Virus record (IMG/VR): IMGVR_UViG_3300010354_000783
Span: 1 to 21,843 of that record
Source: a virus
Reading direction: 5' to 3' (one strand)
Length of the DNA: 21,843 bases
Shown: one piece after another, positions 195-17,555 of the stretch
Layout: every line of letters begins with the position of its first letter
Numbering within the stretch: the first letter of the stretch is position 1
Position numbers and translations under genes: made by a program
The notes under the pieces: model-generated
Told to the model about the DNA's origin: nothing
Databases searched by the model: none
The model's input: only the letters and a program-made list of their open reading frames with translations

Positions 195-1322
195 TCACCT
201 CGGGCGGATTCGGAAGAACCAGCCGGTGTCGTTGCCTTCGATGAGCCAGCGAGGCAGCCAGTTCTTGCGGGAGTACGCGATACCCGCGCCTCCCTTGTTA
301 CTGACGTAGCCGCCAGCAGCTAGGTTTGCCTCGCCGAAGGGATCATTGTGGATGAAGTGGGTTGGCGTATACCCGATCACTACGCTCCAGTGGCCTGTAC
401 CGCTTGGGTTGGATACGGGTCCTTTGTGTAGCCAGCCAACTGGAACTGGGTGGCCGTGAGTGATTTCGTTCTCCAAGTCCTCGACTGTGCCATCCATCTC
501 GAATGTGGCGTTCAGTCCCAGTGATTTCAACGCCGCGATTTGTGCTTTGGGGTCGGTTGTGTCGCCAAAGCGGGCGCGGATTTTGTTGTATTCGTAGTCG
601 CCGGAGATCTTTCCGTAGTAGCGGGCCACCATGGCGCAGCTGGAGCTGAAGCATTGGCGCCAGCCGGTGGGGCCGTCGTCAGATCCAAGCTGATATTCGT
701 AGGCGACTTTGAGGATTTTTTCTTTTGCTGGAACCAGTGGTTTCGTGCCAGCGTGCTGATCCATCAGTTGGATCAGTTTGCCTGGATAGTTGGGGTCACT
801 TGCGTAACCTTCCTTGTGCAACCACTTTGCGGCTTCTTCTCGGGTGGCGGCGTTATTGCACCCCTTGTAGTTTTTGTAATCCTTGTACCAGTGATCGACG
901 AGGTACATCACGCATGACAGCAGATCGGGGAAGTCGATGAAGCTGTCGGTAATTGTGATCCACTGACCGTTAATAAATTCCTGCGTTTTTTTGTCGCTAC
1001 CTTCGCCTTTTAGGCCGAAAAAGTTATTGCGACCTGAGACAAGTTTTCCGTAATTTGATTCCAGTGCCCACTGGGCAGCCACCAGTTCTGGAAATTTTGC
1101 TCCAGCAACTCGGGCGGCTTCGAGTATGCCTTCCCAGCTGTTTGCAAAGTTGGTTTGTTTACCCGCGACGCTCCAGGTTTTGAACCAGCCTTGGTCGCGG
1201 CCCAAGATGTGGGGGTTGGCCTTGTTGATGGCTGCCTCCAGTTCCGTGATGGCGGCCATCTGGTGGGGCAGCGCCTTGTAGAACCGGAATAGGTCGTTAA
1301 GGCGGATCTTGTTTGAGGGCAT
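195..1322 (-). CDS. Bifunctional endolysin: glucosaminidase domain plus C39-like cysteine peptidase domain
   Basis: The 375-aa product has two lytic domains. Residues about 60-193 resemble FlgJ/GH73-type N-acetylglucosaminidases: AAQWALESNYGK carries the likely catalytic Glu88, followed by NNFFGLKG. Residues about 200-375 resemble the C39-like (Peptidase_C39_2) papain fold: Cys224 in GWRQCFSSSCAMVARYYG is the candidate nucleophile, with His311 in GTGHWSVVIGY and Asp327 in HNDPFG. It would therefore cut both glycan strands and peptide stems of the host wall. No signal peptide or membrane anchor is seen, so export should depend on a holin. The start ATG at 1322 overlaps the preceding frame by 26 bases, and no Shine-Dalgarno is evident, so coupling is likely. 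The two-domain architecture is familiar from cyanophages; catalytic residues are inferred from motif position. Confidence 0.88.
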   Translation of the reverse strand: MPSNKIRLNDLFRFYKALPHQMAAITELEAAINKANPHILGRDQGWFKTWSVAGKQTNFANSWEGILEAARVAGAKFPELVAAQWALESNYGKLVSGRNNFFGLKGEGSDKKTQEFINGQWITITDSFIDFPDLLSCVMYLVDHWYKDYKNYKGCNNAATREEAAKWLHKEGYASDPNYPGKLIQLMDQHAGTKPLVPAKEKILKVAYEYQLGSDDGPTGWRQCFSSSCAMVARYYGKISGDYEYNKIRARFGDTTDPKAQIAALKSLGLNATFEMDGTVEDLENEITHGHPVPVGWLHKGPVSNPSGTGHWSVVIGYTPTHFIHNDPFGEANLAAGGYVSNKGGAGIAYSRKNWLPRWLIEGNDTGWFFRIRPR

Positions 1323-1578
1323 CGGACCAGGGGGCGTGGATACTCATGGCGCCACCCAGAAGGCGGCTTTCGCCGGTTTGTAGTTCGTCATTCGGTGGTT
1401 CGTGAACCACAACGGGTTTTGGTTCTTCTGGTTGATCCGCGTGCCAGTCTTCGATGGCGCGATCCAGGCGGGGTTTTAGCGTGGCGTGGAATTTGTGGTT
1501 CTGCGCTGCTTTGCGTAGGTGATTACGCCAGCCCTTATCGCCGAATCGCGCCAGCCAAACTGTGTCGGATCTCAGCGC
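1297..1578 (-). CDS. Frameshift-encoded C-terminal extension of the 45-aa holin-like protein
   Basis: This frame encodes 93 residues beginning ALRSDTVWLARFGDKGWRNH and ends with TAA at 1297-1299. Codon use looks clearly coding, and the product is hydrophilic and charged, with a Pro/Glu-rich segment (EEPKPVVVHEPP). Between an in-frame TGA at 1657-1659 and the middle of the frame there is no ATG, GTG or TTG. The frame lies at -1 relative to the holin-like gene, whose end carries the slippery heptamer C CCA AAG at 1578-1584. A -1 slip would fuse 44 holin residues to these 93, giving a 137-aa protein. Alternatives are initiation at CTG (1575, overlapping the holin stop as CTGA) or an indel error in the assembly. 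The extension overlaps the endolysin start by 26 bases. I do not recognise its fold. Confidence 0.7.
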   Translation of the reverse strand, partial: ALRSDTVWLARFGDKGWRNHLRKAAQNHKFHATLKPRLDRAIEDWHADQPEEPKPVVVHEPPNDELQTGESRLLGGAMSIHAPWSDALKQDPP

Positions 1579-1709
1579 TTTGGGAAGACCACCTTCAGGG
1601 CTTTGACAATCAGCTGGACCCAGCTGTTCTCTTTGATGGGAAGGATGGCGATAACCTCAGAGCCGGCGGCAACCAGAATTGCGATCACGGCTGCGGTGGT
1701 GGGATCCAT
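1572..1709 (-). CDS. 45-aa one-segment membrane protein, probable holin
   Basis: ATG at 1709 opens a 45-residue protein, MDPTTAAVIAILVAAGSEVI followed by a short tail ending VVFPKR. Residues about 6-24 form one hydrophobic segment; the tail is amphipathic and basic. Small proteins of this pattern (MDPxT start, one membrane helix, a PIKxNSWVQL-like stretch) are familiar from cyanophages next to the endolysin and are usually taken as holin candidates. It lies one gene upstream of the endolysin, which would need a membrane hole or lesion to leave the cytoplasm. The gene ends AAG CGC TGA directly after a slippery heptamer, so it may yield both the short protein and a 137-aa extended form. Holin function is inferred from size, topology and position only. 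Confidence 0.72.
   Translation of the reverse strand: MDPTTAAVIAILVAAGSEVIAILPIKENSWVQLIVKALKVVFPKR
1578..1584 (-). other. Canonical -1 slippery heptamer C CCA AAG
   Basis: On the minus strand the holin-like codons TTC CCA AAG CGC TGA contain CCCAAAG in the X XXY YYZ phase needed for tandem -1 slippage (CCA AAG to CCC AAA). The zero-frame stop follows one codon later. A purine-rich AAGGTGG lies four bases upstream (1589-1595), closer than stimulatory internal Shine-Dalgarno sites for -1 shifting usually are. I could not identify a convincing downstream stem-loop or pseudoknot by eye. Confidence 0.65.
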
Positions 1710-2126: not shown

Positions 2127-2289
2127 GGTCCCAGCCCATGCCTTCTAGGTACATCATTGCGATGTAGTGGTCTTCGGCATAGCGGCAGATGCTTCCCTTG
2201 CAAGCGCGGTAGTACAGCTCGCCGCGTTCGTTTTCCAGTTGGTCCAGGACGTAGCCGTTGCCGTAGTCAGTGGTGTGGACGACGCTCAT
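2107..2289 (-). CDS. 60-aa hypothetical protein
   Basis: Starts with ATG at 2289, overlapping the stop of the 83-aa membrane protein gene by four bases (ATGA). The 60 residues, beginning MSVVHTTDYGNGYVLDQLEN, are soluble and rich in Tyr and Gly, with two Cys (CKGSIC-type spacing at about residues 30-35) and a YYRACKGSICRYAEDHYIAM core. No membrane helix or signal is seen. The end overlaps the convergent HNH gene by 20 bases. I do not recognise the family; the ATGA coupling is the best evidence that it is translated. Confidence 0.6.
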   Translation of the reverse strand: MSVVHTTDYGNGYVLDQLENERGELYYRACKGSICRYAEDHYIAMMYLEGMGWDPKADPQ

Positions 2290-2537
2290 TTCTTAGTACC
2301 GACGGTCATTTCAATATGGCGTACACGGCTTTCGAGATCGCTAAGCCTTTCTTTTGAGTCGTTTTTGAGTTCTTGGATGTCGGCGGCCACGGTGCTGACG
2401 GATTGATCTAGCTTGGCGACTTGCATAAAAAGGCCGGCTAGACCCACGACTGCAGCAGTCAGCAGGGCTGGCACGACCTGATTAAACGGGTTATCGGGCG
2501 GTTTGGCAGTAATCAGTGCCTCGTCGTGATGCTCCAT
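2286..2537 (-). CDS. 83-aa membrane protein with coiled coil, candidate holin or holin-associated protein
   Basis: Residues about 21-40 form one hydrophobic helix (VVPALLTAAVVGLAGLFMQV), preceded by a short polar N-terminus and followed by a heptad-rich coiled coil at about 42-78 (LDQSVSTVAADIQELKND and onward), ending in a basic GTKK. One helix plus a coiled coil next to lysis genes recalls XhlA-like haemolysin/holin partners, although in XhlA the helix comes last. It could be a holin, an antiholin, or a membrane tether for the lysis complex. ATG at 2537 lies 31 bases after the preceding stop and 21 bases after a promoter-like motif (2559-2577), so it may begin a separate lysis transcript. 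Function is inferred from topology and neighbours. Confidence 0.65.
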   Translation of the reverse strand: MEHHDEALITAKPPDNPFNQVVPALLTAAVVGLAGLFMQVAKLDQSVSTVAADIQELKNDSKERLSDLESRVRHIEMTVGTKK

Positions 2538-13916: not shown

Positions 13917-14397
13917 TGGCGGTTGTCGGGATTGGACCGAACAAGTCCTCGGTGATGCGGCGCCTAGGTACGTCCGCGCCAACAGCGTCAAGGATGCTTC
14001 CGATCTCAACTTCAATCGTGGGTCCGGCATGGCTGCCGCTAACGATCATGCCTACGTACTCGGTCAGGATGCGGTAGTCCAGGCGGTTGTCCGGGTTCAG
14101 CAGCGCGGTTTCAACCTTGGCGAGCCACTGCGATGTGCCGTTGAAAATGTTGCTGACAATGGTTTGGACGAGGGCGTTGTTTGGGAAGATCAGGCGGGTG
14201 GACTCGTTGTCGCCGTTGCGGTTGACCGTGACGCCGCTCCAGCCAAAAGGGGCGAAACCGTAAACGCCGCCATTGTGGTCAATGTTGTCGTTCGAGAAAA
14301 AATTCTGCAGCGTGTAACGAGGTCCAGCGCCTTTTTCGGAGATGCTGAGCAGGCAGCCGTAGGCGATGTTGTCGTCAAACTCAAATCCGGTGCTCAT
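13900..14397 (-). CDS. Minor tail protein in the gpL position (DUF1833/2163-like)
   Basis: The 165-aa product begins MSTGFEFDDNIAYGCLLSIS and ends GPIPTTANVRLQ. ATG at 14397 shares a base with the tape measure stop (TAATG). It is placed between the tape measure and NlpC/P60 genes, where distal tail or gpL-like proteins are found. The middle segment (VVNRNGDNE-type loop, NNALVQTIVSNIFNGTSQW, RLDYRILTEYVGMIVSG) reads like two beta-layers around a helix, and the end (GADVPRRRITEDLFG) recalls DUF1833-like phage proteins. Only one Cys is present, so the Cys-bound iron-sulphur cluster known for lambda gpL cannot be formed. A ring or hub role joining tube to tip is likely; the exact family is uncertain. 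Confidence 0.55.
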   Translation of the reverse strand: MSTGFEFDDNIAYGCLLSISEKGAGPRYTLQNFFSNDNIDHNGGVYGFAPFGWSGVTVNRNGDNESTRLIFPNNALVQTIVSNIFNGTSQWLAKVETALLNPDNRLDYRILTEYVGMIVSGSHAGPTIEVEIGSILDAVGADVPRRRITEDLFGPIPTTANVRLQ

Positions 14398-17018
14398 TAG
14401 CTGATACCTAGGCGGCTACGAGTGGAGCGGGACTGTTGCAGGCGGCGAATGGTGGCTTGCTCACCGCGAGCGGCACCTTGTGCGGCAGCCTGCTGCATAC
14501 CAGCGCGGAATTGGTCGGCGGTGACGTAATCCACCGAGTTGATGCGTTCCACGGTGTAGCGAACGTCGATAGCTGCTGGCGCCATTGTGGCGGTTCCGCC
14601 GGACATGTCACCGCCTTCACCACCTGCGGGGATGACACTGGAACCACGAGCGCCTGAGGCGTAGCGAGACATGGCGCCACGCATCTTGCTGGCGGGGATG
14701 ACGTATTCGGGTTCGCCGCCTTCGCCAACCATTGCGCGGGTAGGTCCGGTAACGAAACCGCCTTCTGCAAAGGGCGTAAACCCCGGTCCCTCAAGCATTG
14801 GATACGCTTTAAACCCTGAGACGTCTAAGTCGCCACCGCTATTTCCACCGGAAAGACCTGCGAAAGCGCGTGCAATTCCTATAGCGACGTACGCAGCGAT
14901 CATTTGAGCGGCGGCATCCAATAATGCACTACCAACACTCTGTAGAAAATCAGCGAATACCTGTTGTGCAGTTTTGGTGCCGTTAATTAGCTCTGCTATG
15001 CCGGTTGTCATAGCAGTTCCAAATGCTTGACCGATTGCAAGTACAGAGCCCTCTAGTGCTTGAGCTTGGACTTGTGCAAGCTGTAATTGTTGAGTTAGTT
15101 CGGCTATTTGAGTAGCACGCTCTGTAGATTTACCTGCAGCTAATTGCTGCTCAAAGGCGGCTCCCGCCGGTCCAATAAAACCTGCTTGTAATCCAGCGCC
15201 GGTAGCTGATATCTGTCTCTGCAGATTTACTACTTCTTCGGCATCTTTTCTTTGATTAGCTAGTTCAAGTAGCTCTCTGTACTTTTCAACATCCGCGCTC
15301 GTCAAGTATGCCTGCTCACGTTTTAAGTCAGCAATTTTTTGTTCTATCACTACTTGTTTTTCTGTTCCGTCGATGCGTGCGTCAGTAAGCTGTATTTCAT
15401 ATTCCACAGCCCGCAGTACGGAAGCAAATTTTTCGGTACGGTCTCTTTCTATTTGACGAATCTGGTCAGCAGCTTTACGCTCTTCGTTTGTAACCCTCGC
15501 TCTTGCTATCTGGTTAATTGTTGAACGTTCTGTTTCATAATTGGCCCTTTCCAGCTGTTTAATACGATCACGTTCTATGTCTGCTAAAGCTTTTGTAAGC
15601 TCGACGTCGGCTACAAGTAAATCACGACCGTCAAAACGTAGATCTCTAATAAGATCTTCAGCGTTTCCGATTTCAATAATTGCTTGCAGATCTGCCTGTA
15701 GAGATGCAGTTCTGTCCTCTGGCGGTTTTGGTCCTTTGCGCTTTCTTGTTTCTGCGGAGAATTGCTCGTTAAGCCGAGCAACTTCGGACAAAAATTTTCG
15801 GGTGTCTTGTAAAGCTTGATCTTGCGCTTTTTTGCGTTCCGCAGCTCCTTGGCGTATCTCATTTGCACGTTCTTTACCGAAGATAGACGGGTCTATGAAC
15901 TGACCTTGTGCACCTAGTGCAGCAGCTGCTGCAAGAATCCTATCCATTAAAGTTACTTCTTCTGCAACCTTGATAAGTTTTTGTTCTTGTAACTGAATAA
16001 GACGTTCCTGTAGAAAAGCGTTTGCAGCTGCGGAACCGTTAAGTTCCAGCTGTTTTAACGCCTCTTTTGCTTGTGTGTCGGTAATAGTATCGCGCAGTTT
16101 TACAATAGCTTCTAGTGTAGATTTATTATCTATAGCAGCAGCTAACGCATTGAAAGCCTCTTCACCCCCCACTGCACCGAAGCTTGCTGCTAGTGCTTCA
16201 CGAACATCTGCAGAACCGAACTCTGCGAAAGCACTTACCAGTTTGAGTGCCTCATCCTTAGCGATACCTAACTGCGAAGCTAGTTGAGAAATGTCAGTCG
16301 CAGTAGTACGTGATGTACTGCCGGTCGCAGACAAATTAATATTCAGAGAATTTATTTCAGTATTTAATTTTTGTGCATCATCAATAGCTTGTCCGATAGC
16401 TGTACCAACCAAGGAAAGACCGAAACCTAGTGTTCCTCCGAAGGCGCCACCGACCGCTCCACCAAGACCACCACCAACAGCCGCACCTGCTCCCTGACCG
16501 AACAACAACGGAAACGCGCCGCCGATAACAGCGTTACTTGCGGCGCTTCCCACTCGGCTGCGCAGTGCTGCAGCAGCTTGCTTTTGTTGCTCTGCCGTTA
16601 TTTTTTGTTCTGCAGCGAGTTCTTGTTGTTTTGCTTGTAACCGTTTGTTGATTACTCCGCTTATGTAGTTTTCAGCTATTGCCCTGTCTTTTACTGCTTT
16701 TAGTTGTGCTTGTGCGTCATCGCGTCGTATCTGGCTGACACGTCGTTCAACAGCCAGTGCAGCTGCTTGTGCGCTAGCACTTGTTACACCGCTTCCGCCA
16801 GGTCCCATGGGAACTGCCGAAGCTGCTCCTGCGATAGTGCGACGAATTACTACTTGCTGTTTGTTTACCTGCTCAATAGTTTTTGATACTTGTGTGAGTT
16901 TATTTTGCAGTTCATCTAAATACCGTACACCTCTTACGCCGATTTCAATATCAGCTCTGTAAGCGTCCACGGCTTGCGTCACACTCTGGTACTTCAGTTT
17001 ACGCGACAAAAAAGCCAC
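14397..17018 (-). CDS. Tail tape measure protein
   Basis: GTG at 17018 is chosen (873 aa), four bases after the chaperone extension stop; the TTG at 17099 would add 27 Arg/Lys/Ser-rich residues that only mirror the chaperone frame. The protein has a helical Gln-rich N-terminus (AKQQELAAEQKITAEQQKQA), a Gly-rich hydrophobic hairpin at about 161-213 (VIGGAFPLLFGQGAGAAVGG and onward), long coiled-coil regions, a second hydrophobic region (LLDAAAQMIAAYVAIGIARA), and the tape-measure signature FAEGGFVTGPTRAMVGEGGE from about residue 750. It sets tail length and is ejected or spans the membrane at infection; 873 residues imply a tail of roughly 130 nm if the usual 0.15 nm per residue applies. Much of 14900-17000 is visibly AT-richer than its neighbours. 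Confidence 0.9.
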   Translation of the reverse strand: MAFLSRKLKYQSVTQAVDAYRADIEIGVRGVRYLDELQNKLTQVSKTIEQVNKQQVVIRRTIAGAASAVPMGPGGSGVTSASAQAAALAVERRVSQIRRDDAQAQLKAVKDRAIAENYISGVINKRLQAKQQELAAEQKITAEQQKQAAAALRSRVGSAASNAVIGGAFPLLFGQGAGAAVGGGLGGAVGGAFGGTLGFGLSLVGTAIGQAIDDAQKLNTEINSLNINLSATGSTSRTTATDISQLASQLGIAKDEALKLVSAFAEFGSADVREALAASFGAVGGEEAFNALAAAIDNKSTLEAIVKLRDTITDTQAKEALKQLELNGSAAANAFLQERLIQLQEQKLIKVAEEVTLMDRILAAAAALGAQGQFIDPSIFGKERANEIRQGAAERKKAQDQALQDTRKFLSEVARLNEQFSAETRKRKGPKPPEDRTASLQADLQAIIEIGNAEDLIRDLRFDGRDLLVADVELTKALADIERDRIKQLERANYETERSTINQIARARVTNEERKAADQIRQIERDRTEKFASVLRAVEYEIQLTDARIDGTEKQVVIEQKIADLKREQAYLTSADVEKYRELLELANQRKDAEEVVNLQRQISATGAGLQAGFIGPAGAAFEQQLAAGKSTERATQIAELTQQLQLAQVQAQALEGSVLAIGQAFGTAMTTGIAELINGTKTAQQVFADFLQSVGSALLDAAAQMIAAYVAIGIARAFAGLSGGNSGGDLDVSGFKAYPMLEGPGFTPFAEGGFVTGPTRAMVGEGGEPEYVIPASKMRGAMSRYASGARGSSVIPAGGEGGDMSGGTATMAPAAIDVRYTVERINSVDYVTADQFRAGMQQAAAQGAARGEQATIRRLQQSRSTRSRLGIS

Positions 17019-17022
17019 CGGG

Positions 17023-17217
17023 TTAGCGGCGGCGTTTGGCCTTTTCGATTTCCTTTTGTTGGTCCTCGTTGAGGATCTGGAAGTAGGCGCTCCAGCCAAG
17101 GAGTTCTTCGGCGGTCATCATGCTGCGGACTTGGCCGAGGCTTAGTCCCAGCTCTTTGGCGACGCCGAACTGGAGCATGAGCCAGTTGTCCTGGCGAAGC
17201 TCCTTGGCTAGTTCTTG
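17023..17217 (-). CDS. Tail assembly chaperone C-terminal (gpT-like) frameshift extension
   Basis: In the -1 frame relative to the chaperone gene, an open reading frame of 64 codons after the shift point encodes QELAKELRQDNWLMLQFGVA and ends with ...SMMTAEELLGWSAYFQILNE and a Lys/Arg tail. The MTAxExxxWxAYxxI pattern is the hallmark of the gpT part of G-GT chaperones. The frame has a TGA just upstream (17236-17238) and overlaps the zero-frame stop TAG (17208-17210), so only a short window allows the shift. Shifted product: about 177 aa (113 + 64). The GT form binds the tape measure and recruits tube subunits, and is absent from the finished particle. An internal ATG at 17178 could make a shorter separate protein. 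Confidence 0.78.
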   Translation of the reverse strand, partial: QELAKELRQDNWLMLQFGVAKELGLSLGQVRSMMTAEELLGWSAYFQILNEDQQKEIEKAKRRR

Positions 17218-17555
17218 GGGTCGATGGGCTCGGCGTCATCGGTGAGGATCGCCAGCATCAGTGCTTGGAGGTCCTTGTCCTTGACCTCGTTCTTCAGCAC
17301 GTCGATTTCACCAGCGCTGAACAGCTTGGTGCCGTTTTCGTCGAGGGCTTTGGCGATCAGCAGCTGAAGTGCAAAAGCGTTGGCGTCATCCGACTTGGCT
17401 TGCTTTTGGGCGCGTTCACGCTCAGCCATCGTCAGCGGTGCCACCCACATCTCAAAGGTGCTGCCATCAGACAGCTCTACTTGCTTTTTGACCGGCTCTA
17501 GGTTCGCTGCTTTGCGCAGGCGATCAATAGCGCGGACTGGAATTGAGGAAGGCAT
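17208..17555 (-). CDS. Tail assembly chaperone (gpG-like)
   Basis: The 115-aa product begins MPSSIPVRAIDRLRKAANLE and contains VELSDGSTFEMWVAPLTMAE and a helical C-terminal half (ALDENGTKLFSAGEIDVLKN). Position between the tube gene and the tape measure, size, and the presence of an overlapping -1 frame identify it as the G part of the G-GT tail assembly chaperone. It follows a strong terminator behind the tail tube gene, with 43 bases of leader, so it is expected to be made in smaller amount than the tube. The coding end, GAC CCC AAG AAC TAG, holds the probable slip site. Confidence 0.82.
   Translation of the reverse strand: MPSSIPVRAIDRLRKAANLEPVKKQVELSDGSTFEMWVAPLTMAERERAQKQAKSDDANAFALQLLIAKALDENGTKLFSAGEIDVLKNEVKDKDLQALMLAILTDDAEPIDPKN
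17214..17220 (-). other. Probable -1 frameshift site CCCCAAG in the tail chaperone gene
   Basis: On the minus strand the zero-frame codons GAC CCC AAG AAC TAG contain CCCC. A Pro-tRNA on CCC (17217-17219) can re-pair one base back on CCC (17218-17220), after which CAA GAA CTA is read. In-frame limits are a TGA at 17236-17238 and a TAG at 17208-17210, so few other sites are possible. The A-site pairing after slippage would be poor, unlike a full X XXY YYZ site. Confidence 0.55.

Follow-up and report, generated by a model that had tools for sequence, protein, structure and literature searches.

Ribosomal -1 frameshifting on heptamers of the X_XXA_AAG type is classical, and to our knowledge most of the conserved cases described in tailed phages concern tail genes. 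In the lambda tail-assembly chaperone gpG/gpGT, which precedes the tape measure gene, a -1 shift at such a heptamer (G_GGA_AAG), placed close to where the upstream ORF ends, yields a minor product with an extended C terminus. The dual-start holin/antiholin genes (lambda S; SPP1 24.1 and 26, PMC6316719) also each encode two forms of a small membrane protein for lysis, which begin at different start codons and so have different N termini. Frameshifting is tied to lysis-gene expression in the RNA phage MS2 as well (cited in the 2016 recoding review PMC5009743); there, frameshifted ribosomes terminate and so permit a separate lysis start. Finally, GeneMark predicted frameshifts in lysis neighborhoods, near holin genes, of Streptomyces cluster BI2 phages, for which the accessible part of the report shows no conserved heptamer (PMC9671017).

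Here we describe a gene in a cyanophage lysis cassette that, judged from sequence comparison, very probably undergoes programmed -1 ribosomal frameshifting. As in gpG/gpGT, the upstream ORF has its X_XXA_AAG heptamer close to the 3' end, one clade having the identical G_GGA_AAG, and the shift would give a minor C-terminally extended protein; unlike gpG/gpGT, the gene encodes a lysis-cassette membrane protein. The isoforms would differ by a C-terminal extension made by frameshifting rather than by start choice as in the dual-start genes, and unlike in MS2 a fusion would be made; the Streptomyces phages are unrelated to those considered here. A preliminary description of this DNA knew of no frameshift in a phage holin gene of this type, and we likewise found none described in the accessible text of the open-licence literature, the nearest being the prediction near Streptomyces phage holins (PMC9671017); the word "holin" does not occur in the available portion of PMC5009743.

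The candidate frameshift locus in the window

The window (the whole 21,843-nucleotide stretch that was analyzed, from IMG/VR record IMGVR_UViG_3300010354_000783) is a contig whose endolysin gives Synechococcus phages as the closest cultured kin (S-CBS1, 59% identity). The features of its lysis cassette are collected in Table 1.

Table 1. Positions and supporting evidence for the lysis-cassette features of the window
Feature	Position	Strand	Evidence
Endolysin (glucosaminidase + C39-like peptidase)	195..1322	(-)	Pfam PF01832, PF13529; PHROG 10051 endolysin, E 3.6e-143
-1 frame extension, 93 codons + TAA	1297..1578 (open from GCG at 1578 to 1300; TAA 1299-1297)	(-)	dN/dS 0.11; predicted helix 19-50; stand-alone cyanophage homologues
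45-aa membrane protein (probable holin), 0-frame product	1572..1709 including TGA stop (45 codons, 1709-1575; TGA 1574-1572)	(-)	ORF; PHROG 22542; pre-endolysin position
CTG codon overlapping the TGA stop	1573..1575	(-)	Sole near-cognate start at the extension's beginning; not conserved as a start
Slippery heptamer C_CCA_AAG	1578..1584	(-)	Sequence; one of three X_XXA_AAG heptamers in 166/167 loci
Upstream small membrane/coiled-coil-like protein of the cassette	2286..2537	(-)	ORF

The preliminary description had reported that the 45-aa ORF ends TTC CCA AAG CGC TGA, and this was exact to the base: the 3' end reads GTC TTC CCA AAG CGC TGA, with CCCAAAG in the X_XXY_YYZ phase that tandem -1 slippage requires. 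The reported 93-codon open -1 frame and long form were reproduced by the ORF reading (44 + 93 = 137 aa). As had also been claimed, no ATG, GTG or TTG stands near the beginning of the extension, whose earliest such codon is a GTG in a VVV stretch about 58 codons in (the next ATG is codon 80), and the extension ends within the start of the endolysin gene, overlapping it by 26 nt. The extension consists of a predicted long helix followed by a conserved LGGxMxIxAPW module.

Upstream, an HNH endonuclease gene (PHROG 2214, PF01844; 1791-2126, plus strand) splits the cassette in the window between the upstream small membrane protein and holin-like genes; the latter two are adjacent in S-CBS3.

Conservation of the slippery heptamer

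The preliminary description had proposed a comparison of homologous loci, and we searched for relatives with the -1 extension alone as query, using six peptide patterns, none of which covered the heptamer. This search gave 188 relatives on viral contigs, of which 80 were kept; further scans with the extensions of KBS-S-2A, WH11-B and S-EIVl, together with isolate genomes, brought the total to 170 loci. Scans of GTDB contigs gave no bacterial relatives, so the system appears to be phage-borne. In 167 of the 170 loci, which are kin and not independent events, a matching short membrane ORF precedes the extension, which is in the -1 frame relative to it; this was the only relation between the two that our script sought. 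Two of the three loci outside the pattern are truncated at contig ends (L057 and L076). In the third (L126:1860-2010), a one-base difference inside the short ORF brings the two parts into one frame, either as a natural in-frame fusion or through a sequence error.

The heptamer, its phase and the start-less extension were all kept in these relatives. An in-phase heptamer was present in 166 of the 167 loci, as A_AAA_AAG (99), C_CCA_AAG (62) or G_GGA_AAG (5), and it ended 0 or 1 codon ahead of the 0-frame stop. Loss of the heptamer with both frames intact, which had been named as evidence against the claim, was seen only at L073, the lone exception (G_AAA_AAG). In E. coli, the most efficient X_XXZ_ZZN heptamers in the presence of stimulators are C_CC.A_AA.G, G_GG.A_AA.G and A_AA.A_AA.G (Sharma et al. 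2014, PMC4066793); the phage heptamers at the 166 loci are exactly these three, the efficiencies being those from E. coli.

Synonymous change had been predicted to be reduced around the site, and we found none there: TTC, CCA and AAG are each present in 51 of 51 unique C-class loci, the neighboring codons for Lys, Val, Leu and Ala vary, and elsewhere in the same membrane-segment genes CCA accounts for 2% of Pro codons and AAG for 50% of Lys codons. Where one codon separates the A-class heptamer from the stop (59 unique loci), the codon preceding AAA AAG varies in the residue it encodes and always ends in A. Transcriptional slippage, conceivable in the A-rich class, was rejected as an explanation; the C class is without any run longer than 3.

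Stimulators differ among proven cases of -1 frameshifting. RNAalifold and minimum free energy z-scores revealed no conserved downstream structure in either the C or the A class. In one region, folding of the five G-class sequences is better than that of their shuffled versions. Pairing with the anti-Shine-Dalgarno sequence 5-7 nt upstream exceeds that of synonymous shuffles (z ~ -4.8) and is weak in energy.

Identity of the short membrane protein

The 45-aa protein has one hydrophobic segment and falls in PHROG 22542 (E 5.5e-9), a family of no assigned function. From its size, its single hydrophobic segment and the gene order, it is probably a holin. In 145 of 158 loci the endolysin gene immediately follows the short ORF, and in T7-like cyanophages this ORF lies just ahead of the small terminase gene, a slot that we take to be the place of T7 holin gene 17.5. 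The other serious reading keeps the frameshift and makes the short protein some other small cassette membrane protein, such as an anchor that holds the tail to the membrane, or a component of an outer-membrane disruption system. For this speak the lack of a match to any known holin family or Pfam entry in our Pfam and PHROG searches, the length of only 45 aa, and the second small membrane/coiled-coil-like protein upstream, a homologue of which was detected upstream in 112 of 157 loci; the position before the endolysin, or in the 17.5 slot of T7-like phages, speaks against it. We regard a non-holin identity as a real prospect, though the less probable one. Positive charges follow the hydrophobic segment, which suggests a cytoplasmic C terminus.

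The extension as a protein

The preliminary description judged the -1 frame to look coding, and substitution patterns bear this out. Across 400 pairs sharing 80-97% identity, the extension had a median dN/dS of 0.11 in the -1 frame versus 1.2 and 2.2 in the wrong frames, and differences fell mostly at codon position 3 (8293, versus 3139 at position 1 and 1700 at position 2). The extension evolves as a protein in the -1 frame, under purifying selection; dN/dS of the short ORF was 0.15.

By profile comparison (hhalign probability 95%, E 3e-8), the C-terminal part of the extension is related to stand-alone proteins of S-CRM01, S-H34, S-CAM7, S-CBS2, S-CRES1 and S-CRES3. Against PHROG 3316 the window extension scores weakly (E 0.02), a family in which S-CAM7 gp243 scores 5e-55. 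The predicted structure of the extension has a pTM of 0.34, so we used only its helix (19-50) and its Foldseek match to T4-GC 852 of S-PM2 (probability 1.00, E 0.017). The stand-alone PHROG 3316/T4-GC 852 proteins (S-CRM01 g111, S-H34 gp237 and S-CAM7 gp243) have a homologous C-terminal module, ETxLGGxMRLRAPW, and differ in having their own start codon and N-terminal hydrophobic segment, with no frameshift. Most stand-alone members begin at their own ATG or GTG and have an N-terminal hydrophobic segment (by eye), and in S-CRM01, S-H34 and S-CAM7 endolysin or lysin genes are close by.

These data bear on whether slipped ribosomes might serve only to deliver translation to the endolysin start, the extension being a functionless protein. 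The overlap between extension and endolysin start is indeed constant, at 13-28 nt in most loci, as coupling would have it. Against this stand the dN/dS of 0.11 and the retention of the C-terminal module both in stand-alone genes and where no endolysin follows (S-EIVl, WH11-B, S-B28 and 7B11-B), and we consider coupling as the sole function very unlikely.

Two loci have exchanged extension C termini (L161 and L164); that of L161 is the cyanomyovirus-like FTEDQQGETPLGGFMRIQSP motif, which suggests that the tail module has been shuffled between phage groups. In S-CRM01, g112 (L180:593-1345), located between the endolysin gene and the gene for the stand-alone tail module, encodes the motif HGCIRMHN, which by eye resembles L,D-transpeptidases.

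Absence of a conserved start codon

Homology of the extension starts at the heptamer. A -1 stop often lies a few codons upstream of the site (in L155, immediately before AAA AAA), and 112 of the 136 unique loci have no ATG, GTG or TTG between this stop and the 0-frame stop. A normal start in relatives had been named as one finding that would count against frameshifting; we saw no consistent start for the downstream frame among those with this architecture, and only the stand-alone homologues, in other gene arrangements, possess one.

We considered whether ribosomes terminate and reinitiate, so that the extension would be a separate protein begun at the nTG overlapping the TGA stop (CTG 1575 in the window). 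Such a codon is found in 106 of 136 unique loci (CTG 92, TTG 12, GTG 2), and the stand-alone gene of S-CBS2 does begin at a GTG that overlaps the preceding stop codon, again in the -1 relation; S-CBS2 is an initiation-based alternative to frameshifting. The apparent CTG start, however, arises because a TGA stop forces nTG: where the stop is TAA or TAG, the codon is CTA, TTA or GTA (30/136) and the extension is intact. These loci rule out CTG initiation, also raised in the preliminary description. Reinitiation would moreover leave the invariant heptamer unexplained, and we judge it highly improbable.

Cultured phages and negative controls

The arrangement is common to seven cultured Synechococcus phages, both siphoviruses and T7-like podoviruses. 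A_AAA_AAG occurs in S-CBS1, S-CBS3 and KBS-S-2A and in the T7-like WH11-B, 7B11-B and S-B28, and G_GGA_AAG in S-EIVl. The deposited annotations of these isolates leave the extension out or give it an internal start. As a control, we sought the three heptamers in eight isolates with a related short ORF and no frameshift-type extension (S-CRES1, S-CRES3, S-CBS2, S-CBP1, DSL-LC07, S-SRP01, P60 and S-CBS4); they were absent, even where the protein has FPK near its end.

A sequencing indel or decayed gene, which a single contig alone could not exclude and which the one-base difference in L126, with both parts in one frame, might recall, is refuted for the family and has next to no probability, since the arrangement is found in 136 unique loci with purifying selection on both parts, and the seven finished isolate genomes exclude an assembly error or read-level indel (such as one at 1578-1584) as the general cause.

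Proposed mechanism and implications

The comparison strongly supports a dual product and its upkeep by selection. In viruses of marine and freshwater cyanobacteria, one lysis gene appears to give rise to two forms of a very small membrane protein. Under programmed frameshifting, most ribosomes would complete the 45-aa membrane protein; in a minority, the Pro and Lys tRNAs would slip back one base on C_CCA_AAG, and these ribosomes would read 93 more codons to give a 137-aa isoform that shares the membrane segment and adds a hydrophilic tail ending in LGGxMxIxAPW. The long isoform would be the minority product, probably residing in the same membrane with its tail cytoplasmic, and may co-assemble with the short form and time or couple lysis as an antiholin-like modulator or adaptor. 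That it is a membrane-anchored minor isoform modulating or coupling lysis strikes us as at best an even call. More tentatively, with the balance leaning somewhat against it, the locus might be a conserved lysis clock of Synechococcus phages, in which frameshifting fixes the ratio of a short holin to a membrane-tethered tailed isoform that controls timing, and in which podo-, sipho- and myovirus-type cyanophages share a tail module anchored either by frameshifting or by its own N-terminal helix.

With this locus, a lysis-cassette gene would join the conserved phage frameshifts, across Synechococcus siphoviruses and T7-like podoviruses, offering a C-terminal route to two lysis-protein isoforms unlike the dual-start route. 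The work also defines a conserved protein module, which the deposited isolate genomes that we examined lack or show cut short in their annotation, and control of lysis in abundant aquatic phages becomes testable through a single seven-base site.

The locus does not lie between the major tail protein and tape measure genes, the latter being far off at 14397-17099. Ahead of the tape measure gene, the window has a probable lambda G/GT-type tail chaperone pair of its own (17023-17555, minus strand), in which a 115-aa ORF ends GAC CCC AAG AAC TAG with the -1 frame open beyond; its slip site is not a canonical X_XXY_YYZ.
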